The notes beneath the pieces are model-generated. The model did not search any database. It was given only the letters and a program-made list of their open reading frames with translations, and was not told the origin of the DNA. From a virus, in the IMG/VR virus record IMGVR_UViG_3300041405_000060, positions 1-64,000 of that record: a stretch of DNA of 64,000 nt; one strand, 5' to 3'. A program made the position numbers and the translations under genes. Shown here piece by piece: positions 28,510 to 47,013 of the stretch. Numbering within the stretch: the stretch's first letter is position 1; every line of letters starts with the position of its first letter.

Positions 28510-29823
28510 ATGCTTAACTTGAAAGGTTTCATTGGATACCCTTCCATGGTCAGTAATATCCCTGACCAAGTCGCGAAGATTGGAGAACTGTCCAAGAACA
28601 GCCTCACCTACGCAAAAGACGTAACGACCCACACCAGCACGTCAGTACCGAATACAGTGTTTTTTTCCTTTCATAGCGTAAGGGATGAAACTGTAGTAGA
28701 TGTTGATTCAGCAACCAAGGACTTGGTCCTCAAGCTGTCTAAGTATCTGTTGGATCAGGCCATTGCTGGTGCGATCACTCAAGATCCCCAAGTCGTTCGA
28801 CAATTGGTATTGGCCGAGTTCGGTCCACTACTGAAAAGCTTCTCTACCGGTAAGATGCTTACCAACAATGTTATCTGGATGCCAGAGTACGTTGTGTTTG
28901 AGATGTCTGCACCAACCGAAACAAACCGTGTACAACTTTGGTATGCCGATGATAGCTTCTCGGGTCAGTACGATGAATACTTCATCGAGGTTATTCACCC
29001 ACTGATTCCGTATGACGATTTCTTCAAAGATCCATTGCTGGTTATTGAAGCACTCAAAGCTTACAACTTCGATGAGAAGCTAGAAGAAGTACAAGTCAAG
29101 CGTGCAGAATACCCGTTCACTAATCTACGGTCATTGACTTACGATTACGTTAACCCACGTAACCCGACAATGCGTCAACCAGCTCGCTGGCTTGCATTGC
29201 TTTACGGGGTTGCTGCAGACAACCAAGACTTCATCAACGATAAGATCATTGAAGAACTGTTGGCCAACTCGACACATACCCGTGAAGAGTGGGAAGCGAT
29301 TCTCCCTGACCTTTTTAAGAAGACCGAGTTTATCATCACACCTTTCTGGGAAAACTATTCCGTAGAGGCAGGTATCCTCGGTGCAGGTTTCTACAGTCCA
29401 ACAGTTGATCCACGTAAAGAACTTCCGTTACTGCGTCGTACAGCTCGTGGTCCTGGTTACACACAGGCCTGGGTTGATGCACAGTATGAGATCTCTTCTC
29501 ACACCTACAAGTCTCTGGCTTTCGGTGTAGTGGGTAACCCACAGAACCGTGAGGGCATTGTGCGCTTCTCTAAGAAGTTCCCTGACTATCTGTTGGTGAC
29601 TAACAACACAGCTGACTTCGACCGTGTTGATCCTTTGACAACTGGTGAATGGATGCTGCTTTTCGCTAAGCTCCTGAAAGAAGCTGAGTTGATGGACCGT
29701 TACACTTCGGTACCGCTGGGTATTTCTCGAATGGTGCGTGACGGTGTGGTTTACGCATCGGCTGTTTTCCAACGAGTCAACTATCTGGTTGTAACGAAAT
29801 CGTCTGTTGAAGAGTTCACATAA
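28510..29823 (+). CDS. Putative virion structural protein
   Basis: A 437-residue protein, GAGGACCGTTAA before ATG. It has no signal peptide or membrane helix and is rich in aromatic residues and strand-helix alternation (NVIWMPEYVVFEMSAPTETNRVQLWYADDSF). A middle region (YPFTNLRSLTYDYVNPRNPTMRQPARWLALLYGVAADN) and RRTARGPGYTQAWVDAQYEISSHTYKSLAF look like conserved structural elements. I cannot assign a defined virion part. Neighbouring inner-head-like genes and its own flanking regulatory regions suggest a capsid or neck component of phiKZ-type virions. Confidence 0.5.
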   Translation: MLNLKGFIGYPSMVSNIPDQVAKIGELSKNSLTYAKDVTTHTSTSVPNTVFFSFHSVRDETVVDVDSATKDLVLKLSKYLLDQAIAGAITQDPQVVRQLVLAEFGPLLKSFSTGKMLTNNVIWMPEYVVFEMSAPTETNRVQLWYADDSFSGQYDEYFIEVIHPLIPYDDFFKDPLLVIEALKAYNFDEKLEEVQVKRAEYPFTNLRSLTYDYVNPRNPTMRQPARWLALLYGVAADNQDFINDKIIEELLANSTHTREEWEAILPDLFKKTEFIITPFWENYSVEAGILGAGFYSPTVDPRKELPLLRRTARGPGYTQAWVDAQYEISSHTYKSLAFGVVGNPQNREGIVRFSKKFPDYLLVTNNTADFDRVDPLTTGEWMLLFAKLLKEAELMDRYTSVPLGISRMVRDGVVYASAVFQRVNYLVVTKSSVEEFT

Positions 29824-30523: not shown

Positions 30524-31087
30524 ATGTCTCATTTATCACCTAAGAAACTTTCCGCTCTCCTTGCCAGCCTGGAAGATAGCGATGGCGTTGCCCGCCAAGT
30601 AGATGTAACCAATGCAACTGCATCGGCTACTAATGATCACCCAGCTGCTCCTACAGCTGAAGCTGACTCTAAAGGCGAAGCCGCTACTGCTGCTGATACC
30701 GTGAGTGTTGGTGACAGCGATATGATCTCTGCTACCATTCAAGACGAAATCAAGAAAGGTGAGCAGATCGACCGTGACATGGAAAAGATGGAAGAGGCTA
30801 AGGCCGCTTGCGAGCATCACGCTAATGCAGTATCGAATTATATCGATCGCAATGAATCGGTTCCCCCATCCCTGGCTGAAGTTATTCAGGTTAGCCTGAA
30901 GCGTCATGATCCTAAGTTCTTCGCTAAGACTGTACCAGCGCTGGAATCTTTCTCTGCCCCTACTGGTCGCATGACTAATTCAATCGAATTGCTGAAGCGT
31001 TTGAAAGATGGCGTCACTACACTTAACCTCGGTCTCGAAGCTGCTGCTGCACAAAAGAGCCAACTGAAAGGAATCAAACATGGCTAA
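30524..31087 (+). CDS. Inner-head-like protein, short copy
   Basis: A 187-residue protein. An acidic, Ala/Thr-rich N-terminus is followed by a helix and the segment VSLKRHDPKFFAKTVPALESF, which lines up with IALESHDRNFFRPVVTSLEDY in the gene at 32834 and LRGMYPKFFSKLNASLEAI in the gene at 31080. phiKZ-type phages package several paralogous 'inner body' proteins whose N-terminal propeptides are removed by the prohead protease after a (S/A/G)-x-E site; ALE here is a candidate site. The C-terminal mature part would be only about 40 residues. Overlaps the next gene by eight bases. Confidence 0.58.
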   Translation: MSHLSPKKLSALLASLEDSDGVARQVDVTNATASATNDHPAAPTAEADSKGEAATAADTVSVGDSDMISATIQDEIKKGEQIDRDMEKMEEAKAACEHHANAVSNYIDRNESVPPSLAEVIQVSLKRHDPKFFAKTVPALESFSAPTGRMTNSIELLKRLKDGVTTLNLGLEAAAAQKSQLKGIKHG

Positions 31088-32435
31088 GGTCAAACTATCG
31101 AAACTGCTTCCTAGCTTCGAATCCGAAGAGGGTGCAGCTGAAACTGTCGATGCCAAAGAAGTAAGTGCTGAACTGGGCAAAGACGCTGTGCAACAAGTGG
31201 CTGACGATGGTTCGGGTAAAGGTGAGGTTGCAGAAGCTGCTTTTGAGGTAGATGTAGATGGTAAAGACTTTACCGCAATCGACGAAGCTTCTAAACGCCA
31301 AGGCGAAGCGATCCACCAAAAACTGGAACGTCTTGATGAAGCCTGCGTATCGACTGAAGCATACCTGGCTATTCTTCGCAAGTCAACTCGGTTTGGTTTA
31401 GAGTCAGCCTCGGCATCTGTTATTGCCCATGACCTGCGTGGCATGTATCCCAAGTTTTTCTCTAAGTTGAATGCATCGTTAGAAGCAATCGATGACGAAA
31501 ATGAACCAGCCCGTATCGGCCATACTCAAGAAGCTGAGAAAGAAGCTACCGGTAAATTGGATAAGCTGAAAGGCGCAGTTGTTGAAGGCTGGAAGAAGTT
31601 CATGGCGTGGTTGAAAGAACGCTGGGTAAAACTGAAAGGGCTTTTCGATAAAGTCTTTGGGCGCACCAAGAAAGTGAAAGAAGCTAATGCCAAGTTGCTG
31701 GCTTCTCCTACTCCTGAGACAGCTGCCGAAGTTACTAAAGTTCTAGGTGGATCTGCTCCGTCTGAAACTACAGACGAACCCGCAGCTAAAGAACCAGCTG
31801 CCCCAGCAAAGAAAGAGCGTGTGACGGTTGCTAACATCGGCGTGTTGTCTGGTAAAGATCCTCTCGACATGAAGAAGATTAACCTGAAGGTTCTGACTGA
31901 TCTTCATAATAACTGGATGAAACCCACCGCTGCTTCCATTAAAGAAGTTCTTCGTTTGATGCTTGGTGACGAATCTAAATCCGCTCAGATGATCGACATC
32001 CAGAAAATCGCCCAAGAGATCATCAAAGTTGAGTTTTCTCCAGAACAAGGTCTATTGCCCAGCAATTACCAACTAGAGGGAACAGACAACAAGTGGGGCT
32101 TTAAAATGGTCCAACACGACCAGCCAGAGCAGCTCACCGATTACGAAGTGCTAGGTCCTGATGCTGTTAAACGTCTGTTGAGTACCAATGACGAGACTCT
32201 GGATATTGCACTGGAAATGGGGGAGATATGGGTTAGTGTTCAAGCCGATATTGCAAAGATTACCGAAGAAACTAAATACATGATGGATATCGGTAAAGCT
32301 GCAGACTTCAAAAAGTGGGTTACGGAATATCTGACTACGCTTAGTAACTCGGATGTTGTACCTTTGACTAAGCTGATTATCCAAGCAACCACTGCACGTC
32401 TGTTGTTGTTGTCTGAGATGACCATGGCAAAGTAA
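31080..32435 (+). CDS. Inner-head-like protein with putative propeptide
   Basis: A 451-residue protein, AAAGGA before ATG. Residues 1-140 are acidic and helical and end in KFFSKLNASLEAID, the same context as in the paralogues, with SLE as candidate protease site. Next comes a Lys/Trp amphipathic segment (GWKKFMAWLKERWVKLKGLFDKVFG) that also recurs in paralogues, then a Pro/Ala-rich linker and a helical C-terminal domain. These features match the general make-up of phiKZ-type inner body proteins: highly charged, processed, and possibly DNA-associated. Identity with a given phiKZ protein is not established. Confidence 0.62.
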   Translation: MAKVKLSKLLPSFESEEGAAETVDAKEVSAELGKDAVQQVADDGSGKGEVAEAAFEVDVDGKDFTAIDEASKRQGEAIHQKLERLDEACVSTEAYLAILRKSTRFGLESASASVIAHDLRGMYPKFFSKLNASLEAIDDENEPARIGHTQEAEKEATGKLDKLKGAVVEGWKKFMAWLKERWVKLKGLFDKVFGRTKKVKEANAKLLASPTPETAAEVTKVLGGSAPSETTDEPAAKEPAAPAKKERVTVANIGVLSGKDPLDMKKINLKVLTDLHNNWMKPTAASIKEVLRLMLGDESKSAQMIDIQKIAQEIIKVEFSPEQGLLPSNYQLEGTDNKWGFKMVQHDQPEQLTDYEVLGPDAVKRLLSTNDETLDIALEMGEIWVSVQADIAKITEETKYMMDIGKAADFKKWVTEYLTTLSNSDVVPLTKLIIQATTARLLLLSEMTMAK

Positions 32436-32485
32436 GCCCATCTACGGAAGCTTATAGTGAAGGTCCGGATAGCACATTTACGCAC

Positions 32486-32767
32486 ATGGGTAAAACCTAC
32501 AGTGTGGATCGTCTACTAGCCGTGACACGGAATACACCCGTTGTTGATTTTCCATTGGACCGTGTCACATGGATGATTGACGATGACTATGATGTTAAGC
32601 GCATGCGCGCTGCTGATACCTCGGTACCAGTCTGTGTCACACAGCTTTCTACAGGTGAATGGGTTACGATGGATGGTTACCACAGGGTCATTAAGGCTTT
32701 CTATGTGGAAAAGCGTAAGACCATCCCAGCTAAGATCGTCACAGCAGCAATGTTCAAACAGCTTTAA
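32486..32767 (+). CDS. ParB/sulfiredoxin-fold-like small protein
   Basis: A 93-residue protein. The core VTMDGYHRVIKAFYVEKRKTIPAKIV has the DG(Y/H)HR motif followed by a helix and a closing strand that defines the ParB N-terminal/Srx-like fold, in which this loop binds nucleotide. It has no ribosome site in front of the ATG. The frame stays open upstream into the last codons of the preceding inner-head gene without another start codon, which leaves a -1 frameshift product as an alternative. Its role among head genes is unclear. Confidence 0.5.
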   Translation: MGKTYSVDRLLAVTRNTPVVDFPLDRVTWMIDDDYDVKRMRAADTSVPVCVTQLSTGEWVTMDGYHRVIKAFYVEKRKTIPAKIVTAAMFKQL

Positions 32768-32778
32768 CTAAATCATTC

Positions 32779-32806
32779 GGTTGGTGCCTCTGGTACCAAC
32801 CTTATG
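32779..32806 (+). terminator. Hairpin terminator followed by TATG
   Basis: GGTTGGTGCC pairs with GGTACCAACC (10 bp with one G-T wobble) over a TCT loop, then TTATG (TATG 32803-32806). CATT lies just before the stem, as at 10885. Confidence 0.8.
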
Positions 32807-32833
32807 TAACTTTAATCCGCGGAGTAACACCAC

Positions 32834-34612
32834 ATGGCTAAGCCAGTAACTAAGAAACCAGCAGTGAAGAAACCTGCTACCAAAAAACGTTTTCAAGATG
32901 CAATGGGCTTTCTCGCCTCGATGGAATCTGTAGCCATCGCTGAAGATAAGAACGTATCCGTTGATGCTCCTGTACAGAAGGACGTCAAGGTTGAGATCAC
33001 CGACACTGTAACGCCGAACGAAGAAGTAGGTGCATCGGTATCGAACACTCCAACCAAAGAACTGAAAGACACCACGCAAGACGGTACTGCACAAACCCAA
33101 GACGTTGGTAAAGTGTCAGTTAAAGAAACTACCGACGCTGGTAACGCAGGTGAAGAAGATGCTGTTACTAACAAGACTCCTGATGCTGTATCGGCTGGTG
33201 AGAAAGATCTTACCACTGGCGTTGTTTCTAAAGAAGACGCTATCGAAGCAAATGAAACAGAACACCTCGAGCCAAAAGAAGCCGACGACGCAGTCATGAA
33301 CGTTGAGCAGGCCGTTGAAGAGTTGGAGAACACCGGTATTACCGTTGGTTCTGACAATGCCTTGAATCGTGCTGAAACTGTAGGTAACGACCTAGAGAAC
33401 ATCAACAAAGTAGAAGCCGCTCTGGAACAATACCAGACCATGCTAGTTGGCATGCGTAAAGCTGGTAAGCGCCCTACTCCTGAATTTGCTAAGTCGGTTA
33501 AGATCGCATTAGAATCTCATGACCGTAACTTCTTCCGCCCTGTCGTAACTTCCCTCGAAGATTACTCGCGCCCAGGTAACCATCTGGTTAGCGCTAAAGG
33601 TCTGGAAGCTGCCATTGGTGATAAGCTGAAAGATCTGGGTGCTGCTGCCGGTAACGCTCTGAAGCGACTGCTGGAAATGTTGATCGATGCATGGAACCAC
33701 TTCACTCGTGATACCCCTAAACTGATCGAAGAACTCGACAAGACTATCAAAGCCGTACAAGGCGCTGAACTGTCTGCTGGCGATACTCTGCAGTTCAAAG
33801 GTGGTGCTCGTCTGATGGTCAACGGTAACTTCGTTGGTGATTCGGTTGAGATCGTTAAGAATGTTGAGAAGACTGCACAGCAACTGTTGGTTGAATGGCC
33901 ACAAGCTCTGATCAAACTCGTCAACACTATCGAAGCCAAAGGCAAGTCTGTCGCAGTAGCGAACGAAGATGCTGGTGGTAGCGATGGTATCGAAGATGCC
34001 GCACAAGCTGCTCTGGAAGCAACGTTCTCCCAGTTCACCCAAGTTGATTCCGGTGATGCTCCTTCGTCAATGTCCAACTACCCAATCGTTACCCGTTCTC
34101 CGGTAATGCCTGGTAACAAAGCTATGTTCATTGGTGTACAAGACGGTGGCACTGCTGCTGTTGGTGTTGCACACATGAAACAGTTCATGAAGTTTGACTT
34201 CGCTTCTGTCGGTGACGCTGAAGGCGGTGCTGGTGAAGTTAAGATCCCTTCGAAAGAACGTGCTGTAGCTGCACTGAATGCGGTTAAAGGCATCGTTGCT
34301 AACCTGATCGGTAAAGACACCTCGATGGCTGCTCTGAAGCAACTCGCTAAGACAGTCACTTCTGAGAAAGGCACCAAAGCTGGTGATGTTGTTCAGGGTG
34401 CAATCACTGCAGCTCTGATGCAACACCGGATGTTCATGGGTTATCTGACCTCGTTGGTTAAGTCGTACATCGCTTTCTATGCCCACGTTGCTGGTGAGTC
34501 GACTGGTAAAGGCGTTGCCGTTCGTGAGAACTCTGCAGCTGCTCCTACCGATGGCAAAACCAAAGACCGCACCAAAGAAGCAGATGACGAATCTGTAGTT
34601 TCTGTTCAGTAA
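32834..34612 (+). CDS. Inner-head-like protein with long acidic propeptide
   Basis: A 592-residue protein. A Lys-rich first 20 residues are followed by about 180 very acidic, low-complexity residues, then FAKSVKIALESHDRNFFRPVVTSLEDYSRPG (the shared family segment with ALE and SLE sites), an amphipathic helix with WNHFTRDTPKLIEELDKTI, and a long helical and strand-rich C-terminal part. The design, acidic leader plus conserved site plus mature domain, fits proteins packaged inside phiKZ-type heads and trimmed by the prohead protease at 46183-47013. It is the largest of the four paralogues. DNA binding or ejection functions are possible and untested. Confidence 0.62.
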   Translation: MAKPVTKKPAVKKPATKKRFQDAMGFLASMESVAIAEDKNVSVDAPVQKDVKVEITDTVTPNEEVGASVSNTPTKELKDTTQDGTAQTQDVGKVSVKETTDAGNAGEEDAVTNKTPDAVSAGEKDLTTGVVSKEDAIEANETEHLEPKEADDAVMNVEQAVEELENTGITVGSDNALNRAETVGNDLENINKVEAALEQYQTMLVGMRKAGKRPTPEFAKSVKIALESHDRNFFRPVVTSLEDYSRPGNHLVSAKGLEAAIGDKLKDLGAAAGNALKRLLEMLIDAWNHFTRDTPKLIEELDKTIKAVQGAELSAGDTLQFKGGARLMVNGNFVGDSVEIVKNVEKTAQQLLVEWPQALIKLVNTIEAKGKSVAVANEDAGGSDGIEDAAQAALEATFSQFTQVDSGDAPSSMSNYPIVTRSPVMPGNKAMFIGVQDGGTAAVGVAHMKQFMKFDFASVGDAEGGAGEVKIPSKERAVAALNAVKGIVANLIGKDTSMAALKQLAKTVTSEKGTKAGDVVQGAITAALMQHRMFMGYLTSLVKSYIAFYAHVAGESTGKGVAVRENSAAAPTDGKTKDRTKEADDESVVSVQ

Positions 34613-34621
34613 GGTACTCAC

Positions 34622-35776
34622 ATGACCGATATCACTTTAATTCAGGTTAACGCTGACCTGGCCCGACTGAACCAGTACAATCTGGCTCTCGAAGGTTTTC
34701 GGCGTGTGATGGAAGGTCGTGAAGTTGTTACTGGTCCAACGGCGATGGCAATGCGCATCGCCTTGGAAGATGCTGAAGTCGACCTAAAGGACGACAAAGG
34801 TGTCACAGGTAAAGACCTCGTGACTGGATTCAAGAAGGTAATGGTTACTGTTCGGAATATCATCCAGTGGCTATTGCGTACCATCGGTAAGCTTGTTGAG
34901 AAAATTGGCTTGGGTATGCAGAAGTTGGGTGAGAAAGGCCGTAAGGTCAAACAAGCTATTGCTGCTCTCCCAGAAGAACAACGCTCTGCTTTGGGTAACG
35001 GTGATACAACCGAACTCCCACAAGAAGCATTACAGCCAGAGATGTTGACGATTGAAAGTGAATTCGTTGGTAACGATGTTGAAGCTGTAAACAACGTCAT
35101 TAAGATGGGTGCATGGATCAATGGTGACTTCCCTAAGATGTTTGATTCTATTCTGACATCCGCTGAACAACTGGCACGTAAGCACATGAAGGATGAAACC
35201 TCAGAAGCTTACTTCAAAGCACTTGGTGCTGCCATTGCGTCAGGTATTAAGAAACCGACTGTTCCATTTAGCCCTGAGAGTTATTCGAACGTTGGTTCTC
35301 CTGATCAAACAAACAACACCGTTCCGTTGATGGGTAACCAAGGTCTGACTATTCCCGATGCTCGTGAAGCGTCGATGTTGGATCATAACAACCCAGTTGA
35401 AATGCTACGTAGTTGGTTTGTGTTTACCTTTGGGGAATACAACACCAAGAGCACTGGTAACGTTACTATCCCAGTAGCTGACTTCGCCACCATCACTAAG
35501 ATCTCCGATATGATTAACAAATCTATCGATGAGAATAACGGTGGTGCAAACGATGTGAAGGCTATGATGGATCGTCGAGTTAATGCAGTCAATGCATTGC
35601 TAGATGAAATGACTAAGGGCGGTGGTCCAGGTGCACATGGTGAAATCGCTTTGTCTATCGGTATCATGTTGCAACGTCTGTGTGAATGCATGACCCAAGT
35701 CCATGGTTGGTACTCACGTACACTCAATCAAGAACTTGGTTATCTTGGACAATGCCTTGCGGCTGTTGACAAGTAA
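34622..35776 (+). CDS. Inner-head-like protein, copy without acidic leader
   Basis: A 384-residue protein, ten bases after the previous gene. It lacks a long acidic leader and begins near the family segment (GPTAMAMRIALEDAEVDL). Then follow the amphipathic Trp/Lys helix (VRNIIQWLLRTIGKLVEKIGLGMQKLGEKGRKVKQ) and a C-terminal domain similar in layout to the 592-residue paralogue (IESEFVGNDVEAVNNVIKMGAWINGDFPKMF compares with MVNGNFVGDSVEIVKNVEKTAQQLLVEWPQAL). The pair probably arose by duplication. Ends at a bidirectional terminator. Confidence 0.6.
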   Translation: MTDITLIQVNADLARLNQYNLALEGFRRVMEGREVVTGPTAMAMRIALEDAEVDLKDDKGVTGKDLVTGFKKVMVTVRNIIQWLLRTIGKLVEKIGLGMQKLGEKGRKVKQAIAALPEEQRSALGNGDTTELPQEALQPEMLTIESEFVGNDVEAVNNVIKMGAWINGDFPKMFDSILTSAEQLARKHMKDETSEAYFKALGAAIASGIKKPTVPFSPESYSNVGSPDQTNNTVPLMGNQGLTIPDAREASMLDHNNPVEMLRSWFVFTFGEYNTKSTGNVTIPVADFATITKISDMINKSIDENNGGANDVKAMMDRRVNAVNALLDEMTKGGGPGAHGEIALSIGIMLQRLCECMTQVHGWYSRTLNQELGYLGQCLAAVDK

Positions 35777-46182: not shown

Positions 46183-47013
46183 TTACCGCATGTAGCTTGG
46201 ACGGCGAACAGCAGGACGACGTTCCCAACCCAGATTACGGATCAGGTCAGATACATCCATGTGGTCAGCAGATTCCAGACCTAAAGCTTTACGCTTCTCG
46301 GCTTCGTCTTGCATGCCCCACAAAGTAGTCGGGTTGATAACCATCTCGGTCTCTTGGAAGGATTCCAAAGCAGGCGAGTTATGTTTACCAGCCATGTAGA
46401 TGCCACCTTCACCCACGAAGTCCCAAGTAGAGATCTCACGGGTATACTTGATGCCACGCATTACGTCGTCTTGTGTGATCGAACGTACGGAGCAATAAGT
46501 ATTGATGTGTGGGTTAGTGATCGAGTCTTCGAACACTTTGGCATACGGACCATGAGGACGAACCTCAGCGATAACCAGTTTGCATGGACGACCATTTTCG
46601 TCTTTACCGTCGATGATAGTCAGTGCACGGATATGAGCACAAACACGGTCATCATCGATCTTACGAATACGGTTGAGGTATTCACGGTCATCCATGTAAC
46701 GTTTACATTTCTCACCGTCTTTCAGAACCCATTCCCAGGGCTCAGGATGTTTGAACTCCATGTACAGTACTTGCTTGAGCAAGCGACGCATCAATGGAGA
46801 ACCGGGTTCGAACATCGAAACACCGGAAGCGGCATCGTAAAACATACCGGCAGAGTTGTGAGTGCCATAAGCACCAACGCAGAGAGTGTAATACCCATCT
46901 GCATCAGGAGTCAGTACACCCTTCTTACCACCGGCAGTCAGAAGACTACCGCTAATACGAACTTGGTTACCGGCTTGCTTCTGGACACCAAAAAGATCGT
47001 GAGCAGCGCCCAT
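46183..47013 (-). CDS. Prohead protease (T4 gp21 / phiKZ gp175 type)
   Basis: A 276-residue protein, AAGGAACACCACT before ATG. The order of motifs fits the herpes-virus-like/T4 gp21 prohead proteases: a core strand region (ADGYYTLCVGAY), the catalytic His in MEFKHPEPW (H89), and the catalytic Ser in NTYCSVRSIT (S175; the family has (F/C)S(V/I)R). It processes scaffold and inner-head proteins before packaging. Position fits as well: it ends the block that in phiKZ holds the protease and virion RNA polymerase genes. The third catalytic residue is not identified with certainty. Confidence 0.78.
   Translation of the reverse strand: MGAAHDLFGVQKQAGNQVRISGSLLTAGGKKGVLTPDADGYYTLCVGAYGTHNSAGMFYDAASGVSMFEPGSPLMRRLLKQVLYMEFKHPEPWEWVLKDGEKCKRYMDDREYLNRIRKIDDDRVCAHIRALTIIDGKDENGRPCKLVIAEVRPHGPYAKVFEDSITNPHINTYCSVRSITQDDVMRGIKYTREISTWDFVGEGGIYMAGKHNSPALESFQETEMVINPTTLWGMQDEAEKRKALGLESADHMDVSDLIRNLGWERRPAVRRPSYMR

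Follow-up and report, generated by a model that had tools for sequence, protein, structure and literature searches.

Four tandem internal head protein genes

Four genes for internal head proteins, P1 to P4, stand in tandem at positions 30,524 to 35,776 of a 64,000-nucleotide stretch of viral DNA (IMG/VR record IMGVR_UViG_3300041405_000060, positions 1 to 64,000), here called the window, which sits in a virus record of 76,756 bases. We analysed the N-terminal leaders of these proteins, one of which, P1, is almost nothing but leader. An earlier note, made from the letters alone, had read four open reading frames (ORFs) of inner-head paralogues at this locus, and this was confirmed for P1 (30524..31087, 187 residues), P2 (31080..32435, 451 residues), P3 (32834..34612, 592 residues) and P4 (34622..35776, 384 residues), all on the plus strand. 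Each scored above the curated cut-off of 27 bits for PF12699 (phiKZ_IP, phiKZ internal head proteins), with 35.0 bits for P1, 33.2 for P2, 178.1 for P3 and 51.2 for P4, and they were the only four members of this family in the whole record; P1 and P4 also matched phrog_8282. P1 consisted of a leader of 141 residues and a tail of 46 residues and matched only positions 7-97 of the 387 in PF12699, so that the body domain found in P2, P3 and P4 was without a match. The leaders of P1, P2 and P3 were acidic (net charge -11, -9 and -16) and 135-242 residues long up to the site called c below, in agreement with the roughly 120-240 residues proposed before.

The gene order around P1-P4 was that of phiKZ gp157-gp165 and then gp175 onward. 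This synteny covered P3 and P4 only, which were the orthologues of phiKZ gp162 and gp163 and of 201phi2-1 gp246 and gp247 and resembled them in family, gene order and site positions. Excerpts of the literature place gp162 among six abundant inner-body proteins (PMC13282480) and report that gp163 is injected (PMC10449902). P1 and P2 were additional genes of the group of Psa21, which with D6 and RVTF4 was among the named phages closest to the window; phiKZ, 201phi2-1 and PhiPA3 had no such pair at the locus, and their identity was 25-29% to P3 and 19-22% to P4. Among the records examined the extra copies were confined to the Psa21-like group, and rescanning with the P1 alignment added no genome with P1 relatives to the set already used.

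Conservation was counted over the window, nine of the 68 phage records that matched, phiKZ (taken by accession) and four IMG/VR genomes, with 15 rows for P3 and P4, eight genomes each for P1 and P2, and seven genomes for Q, a third gene with leader-only forms, which lies in a second, unlinked internal-protein cluster; columns with residues in fewer than 80% of the rows were skipped. Records L014 and L017 were dropped for having the same protein matches as L012 and L016, and L020 as a second copy of Psa21. Because the record of the window is a fragment, the second cluster could be read in the relatives only. The genomes L011, L012, L013 and L019 are labelled vA, vB, vC and vD.

Cut sites in the leaders and the encoded protease

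The leaders of P1, P2 and P3 shared a frame that ended in an ALE or SLE triplet, which we call site c: HDPKFF-AKTVP-ALE↓S in P1 (E141, codon 30944..30946, plus strand, as are all the sites below), YPKFF-SKLNA-SLE↓A in P2 (E135, 31482..31484) and HDRNFF-RPVVT-SLE↓D in P3 (E242, 33557..33559), with the arrow at the predicted cut. The earlier note had recognized this motif correctly but not its spacing, since five residues rather than eight separate FF from the A or S and the glutamate is the eighth residue after FF. Site c was conserved as [SAG]LE in 8/8 orthologues of P1 and as SxE in 8/8 of P2, while in P3 the glutamate was kept in 15/15, with S or A at position -2 in 14/15 and T in 1/15. Taken together, glutamate was present in all 31 sequences (31/31) and position -2 was S, A or G in 30 and T in one; judged from the sequences, these residues fit the specificity reported for the proteases of phiKZ (S/A/G-x-E) and 201phi2-1 (S/A/G/T-x-E) in passages of PMC5694885.

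To place these sites relative to cuts proven by mass spectrometry in the Salmonella phage SPN3US (gp53 E95, gp54 E124 and gp54 E137, according to Table 2 of PMC10052503), a profile was built from P3, P4 and phiKZ gp93-gp95 only, and P1, P2 and SPN3US gp53 and gp54 were then aligned to it, with a weak match for gp53 (9.7 bits) and a moderate one for gp54 (29.0 bits). Site c fell in profile column 179 (P1 E141, P2 E135, P3 E242) together with gp54 E124 and gp53 E111. Site b, in column 164, joined P3 E227 (ALE↓S, 33512..33514; [SAG]LE in 14/15) and P4 E49 with gp53 E95 and gp54 E107; gp53 E111 and gp54 E107 are not among the proven cuts in that Table 2 (PMC10052503). Site d, P3 E258 (GLE↓A, 33605..33607), lay in column 196, adjoining gp54 E137 at 197, and gp53 E125, the maturation cut of gp53 itself, fell in column 201. 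A MAFFT alignment that included gp53 and gp54 paired b and c in the same way. Sites b, c and d thus align with cuts proven in SPN3US. GLE-258, within one column of the gp54 maturation cut, is probably the final cut of P3; the site was [GS]LE in 8/8 close relatives, and its motif was not retained in all distant ones. Of the one conserved cut site per leader that had been suggested, the homology to a proven cut thus stood, while the single site gave way to several.

Among the sites added here was one near the N-terminus of P1, P2 and P3. An [S/A/G]-x-E triplet was kept at P1 E17 (SLE↓D, 30572..30574; [SA]LE in 8/8), at P2 E14 (8/8) and at P3 E31 (15/15), and N-terminal cuts have been reported for phiKZ gp93 at SLE-13 (PMC5694885) and SPN3US gp53 at ARE-12 (PMC10052503). 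SLE also occurred at 11-13 in phiKZ gp94, gp95 and gp97; in the seven relatives, [SATG]-x-E stood at 11-13 in four second-cluster proteins. A further conserved site, a, was formed by P1 E97, P2 E93, P3 E198 and P4 E24. The predicted cuts were therefore after E17, E97 (weaker) and E141 in P1, after E14, E93 (weaker) and E135 in P2, and after E31, E198 (weaker), E227, E242 and E258 in P3.

The motif was concentrated in the leaders. The four window leaders contained 15 [SAG][LMIVF]E triplets versus 3.7 in composition shuffles, and the rest of the window proteins 6 versus 4.8; for plain [SAG]xE the leaders contained 27 versus 15.3. Glutamate was present in at least 85% of the orthologue rows in 26 leader columns; [SAG] was conserved at -2 in 12 of them, whereas ten other offsets averaged 3.8 (Fisher p 3e-4, from sites that are not independent, the proteins being paralogues). 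Offset +1 had [SAG] in as many columns (12), which agrees with the preference for serine at P1' described for SPN3US. The bodies of P1-P4 contained two columns with conserved glutamate and none with the motif. The ALE/SLE triplets could instead be fold features at helix ends that no protease cuts, as might be suggested by site a, for which no cut is proven and which falls inside a predicted helix, and identity by descent is expected anyway among the homologous P1-P3. This explanation appears very improbable in view of the invariant glutamate and the restricted -2 position of site c, which match the known protease specificities, and of the alignment of b, c and d with proven cuts.

P4 had neither a long acidic leader nor site c, as the earlier note had observed, but it was not free of sites: E24 was kept in 14/15 and E49, site b, as (A/G/S)LE in 15/15 (ALE↓D, 34766..34768). 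A cut after E49 would take off a leader of 49 residues. The proposal that P4 is an unprocessed variant was rejected because E49 is conserved in all 15 rows. The divergence of P4 was uneven, with 78% identity between the window and vC and 44-49% between the window and D6, vB and Psa21, though the gp157 orthologues of the latter were 86-87% identical.

The ORF at 46183..47013 on the minus strand was the prohead (head maturation) protease, as had been supposed. It belonged to the S80 family (PF20034 Peptidase_S80, 300.9 bits; phrog_3014) and was the orthologue of phiKZ gp175, with 61% identity. His89 and Ser175, which we take to be the catalytic pair, were kept in 16/16. The protease had a C-terminal site of its own after E217 (PALE↓S), with SPALE in 15/15 phiKZ-like proteases (outside SPN3US); a proven cut of the SPN3US protease, AQE-203, lies in the same region (PMC10052503).

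Leader-only copies and exchanged bodies

Leaders without a body were found at three loci: P1 in 4/8 genomes (the window included), P2 in 2/8 and Q in 4/7. P1 was long, with 457-461 residues, in D6, RVTF4, vB and vC, and short, with 185-187 residues, in the window, Psa21, vA and vD, where it ended 44-46 residues past site c. The leader-only P2 of Psa21 and vD ended 41 residues past site c. Q had 200-225 residues in Psa21, RVTF4, vA and vD and 538-540 in D6, vB and vC; an acidic linker was seen at the short Q loci (L026, L028, L029 and L032), and Q was of full length at L027, L030 and L031. That P1 is nearly bodiless past its cut site had not been noticed before. In the window, the start codon of P2 overlapped the stop codon of P1, as read from the sequence, so that no body sequence remains between the two genes. 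A Shine-Dalgarno-like sequence and the start of P2 were located within the 3' end of P1 (31066-31087), and since both lie inside P1, translation of the two genes is probably coupled. Short P1 as an artefact of assembly or a frameshift was rejected, as it was seen in four separate genomes and no residual body was present in the window.

The leaders of the four short P1 forms had dN/dS values of 0.065-0.161 (six short-short pairs), close to those of the long forms, although the values are rough because dS between the short forms was high (0.9-2.3). By this comparison of sequences, the leader-only copies are under purifying selection. The tails of the short forms were less constrained, with pN/pS of 0.32-0.82 compared with 0.11-0.35 in the leaders. 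A homologous P1 tail was common to the window, vA and vD, which implied that the truncation predates their split and that the constraint acted afterwards. Counted by hand on the tree (Fitch), the minimum number of body-loss changes was three for P1, two for P2 and two for Q. The P1-leader tree conflicted with the species tree, since it placed the window and Psa21 together (98%); the short forms may therefore have been passed on by recombination, and the losses need not have been independent.

These data also bear on the possibility that the proteins are ordinary processed phiKZ internal proteins whose short P1 and P2 copies are decaying remnants with lost bodies. The repeated loss of bodies, in half of the P1 and a quarter of the P2 genes, would suit decay, and the numbers of head paralogues differ widely among jumbo phages (PMC5694885, in the passages available). 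However, the short-form leaders were as constrained as those of the long forms, the constraint outlasted a truncation older than the split of the window, vA and vD, and the reading frame, the cut sites, a tail of 41-46 residues (P1, P2) and the overlap of P1 with P2 were all kept, which makes decay an unlikely explanation. It is likewise improbable that the leader-only copies carry a mini-cargo, namely a helical tail of about 45 residues past site c that is packaged or injected. The tails were consistent in length (44-46 in P1, 41 in P2) and basic (+3 to +4 in P1, +5 in P2), and a long helix was predicted in them; yet they were less conserved than the leaders, the Q tails were near neutral by eye, and the P1 tail of the window held two more motifs, SIE-155 and GLE-172.

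Where P2 had a body, the body was exchanged between phages. The mean identity of P2 was 63% in the leader and 25% in the rest, and the identity shifted about 5-30 residues past site c. Between the window and vC, the leader was 69% and the body 23% identical, while the orthologue of phiKZ gp157, a neighbouring virion structural protein that served as synteny anchor (28510..29823, plus strand, phrog_3293), was 91% identical; between D6 and vB, the values were 89%, 31% and 90%. Conversely, the window and RVTF4, its most distant relative of the group, were 49% identical in the leader and 66% in the body; for these pairwise values, the reversed-sequence baseline was 19-22%. In P3, the leader and the body differed little (81% and 70%), which showed that the exchange is a feature of P2 and not of all the paralogues. 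Leaders thus stayed constant while bodies were swapped between phages (P2) or missing (P1, P2, Q).

Leader-like segments were also observed in other proteins. ORFs of about 250 residues in PA1C and HPP-Temi (L054 and L055) carried a short C-terminal stretch resembling the leader segment a-b-c, with an unrelated N-terminal part. Proteins of 414-428 residues in phiKZ (83200-85400; L056) and Viktualia (L057) matched PF12699 in the leader segment only, with AVE followed by SLE or ALE about 45-48 residues on and a body that looked different; from their sequences, they are possibly the same leader with other cargo. Between P2 and P3, a conserved ORF of 93 residues and unknown function (32486-32767, plus strand, phrog_17560) lay outside PF12699 and had an identity of 68-91% to its counterparts in those relatives for which it was listed.

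A proposed consumable leader module

Taken together, P1-P4 are, with good confidence, precursors of PF12699 internal head proteins (inner body or ejected) of a phiKZ-like giant phage, whose leaders would be cut by the S80 protease, with the leader-only P1 consumed. The conserved N-terminal leader would carry each precursor into the prohead, where leaders may assemble with one another or with the shell. Several [S/A/G]-x-E triplets of the leader (the N-terminal one, b, c and, in P3, probably d) would then be cut after the glutamate by the S80 protease, which would break the assembly, free the bodies and let the leader fragments leave. P1 would serve as a core or assembly subunit that is wholly chopped up during maturation. 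AlphaFold2 models were built on six-row alignments and reached a pLDDT of 47.0 for P3 and 58.5 for P1; these low values make the helix layout of P1 a hint only, in which site c lies between helices 70-108 and 149-186, the second being the retained tail. In this model, a cut at site c would sever the two predicted helices.

Several points weigh against such processing and consumption. Cleavage in the window phage and its close relatives is a prediction; plain [SAG]xE was no more frequent in the P1 leader than in shuffles (3 versus 3.45), and its raw count was therefore dropped as a test for P1. The conservation of the sites is in part shared ancestry, because they sit in paralogues, and site a may be structural, being in a predicted helix and without a proven SPN3US counterpart, and is kept as doubtful. 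The weak models and the high dS values count on the same side.

The processing of phiKZ internal proteins is already known, so the base finding was expected; what is new is the leader-only and body-exchange pattern. Within the openly licensed literature covered, partly in excerpts, we found no account of leader-only phiKZ internal proteins, and the available passages of the D6 paper name internal head proteins without this point (PMC11139720). The closest counterparts are SPN3US gp53 and gp54, ejection proteins made as homologous precursors whose long leaders are cut repeatedly after A-x-E by the protease gp245; SPN3US differs in its strict A-x-E and in having no leader-only copy among its three PF12699 matches. 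Uncut gp53 and gp54 are described, in parts of PMC7552025, as the main part of an inner T=1 shell in protease-impaired SPN3US capsids. The internal proteins IPI-III of T4, with a capsid targeting sequence (CTS) and the protease gp21, likewise combine a constant removable leader, a variable body and a glutamate-specific prohead protease (PMC9026906, passages available). A constant leader with a variable body was found here for P2, and in the form of body loss for P1, P2 and Q; the CTS, however, has 10-20 residues, whereas the present leaders have 135-242 up to site c and 135-258 overall, and no leader homology is claimed. The SxE site close to the N-terminus (14-31) might represent a piece of the CTS type. 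For P1, an analogy to core proteins that are destroyed or removed in maturation is proposed, namely gp22, gp67 and gp68 of T4 and the SPN3US scaffold candidate gp22 (PMC7411985, in part). Unlike these, P1 derives from the cargo family and not from a known scaffold, and its core role is putative.

Most likely, the leader serves the prohead as a consumable module for core formation or targeting. More tentatively, and with somewhat less than even confidence, the internal head genes of Psa21-like phages may have repeatedly shed their cargo, with the leader-only proteins acting as consumable core or scaffold or as co-assembly subunits, in which case the long propeptide would itself be a structural module rather than a mere tag for targeting. 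The role of very long propeptides, including core or scaffold formation, is described as undetermined in passages of PMC5694885, and natural leader-only paralogues under selection offer a ready-made test of long-propeptide function. The constant leader with swapped bodies marks a natural cargo-packaging module in the phiKZ-like group, comparable to the CTS of T4.

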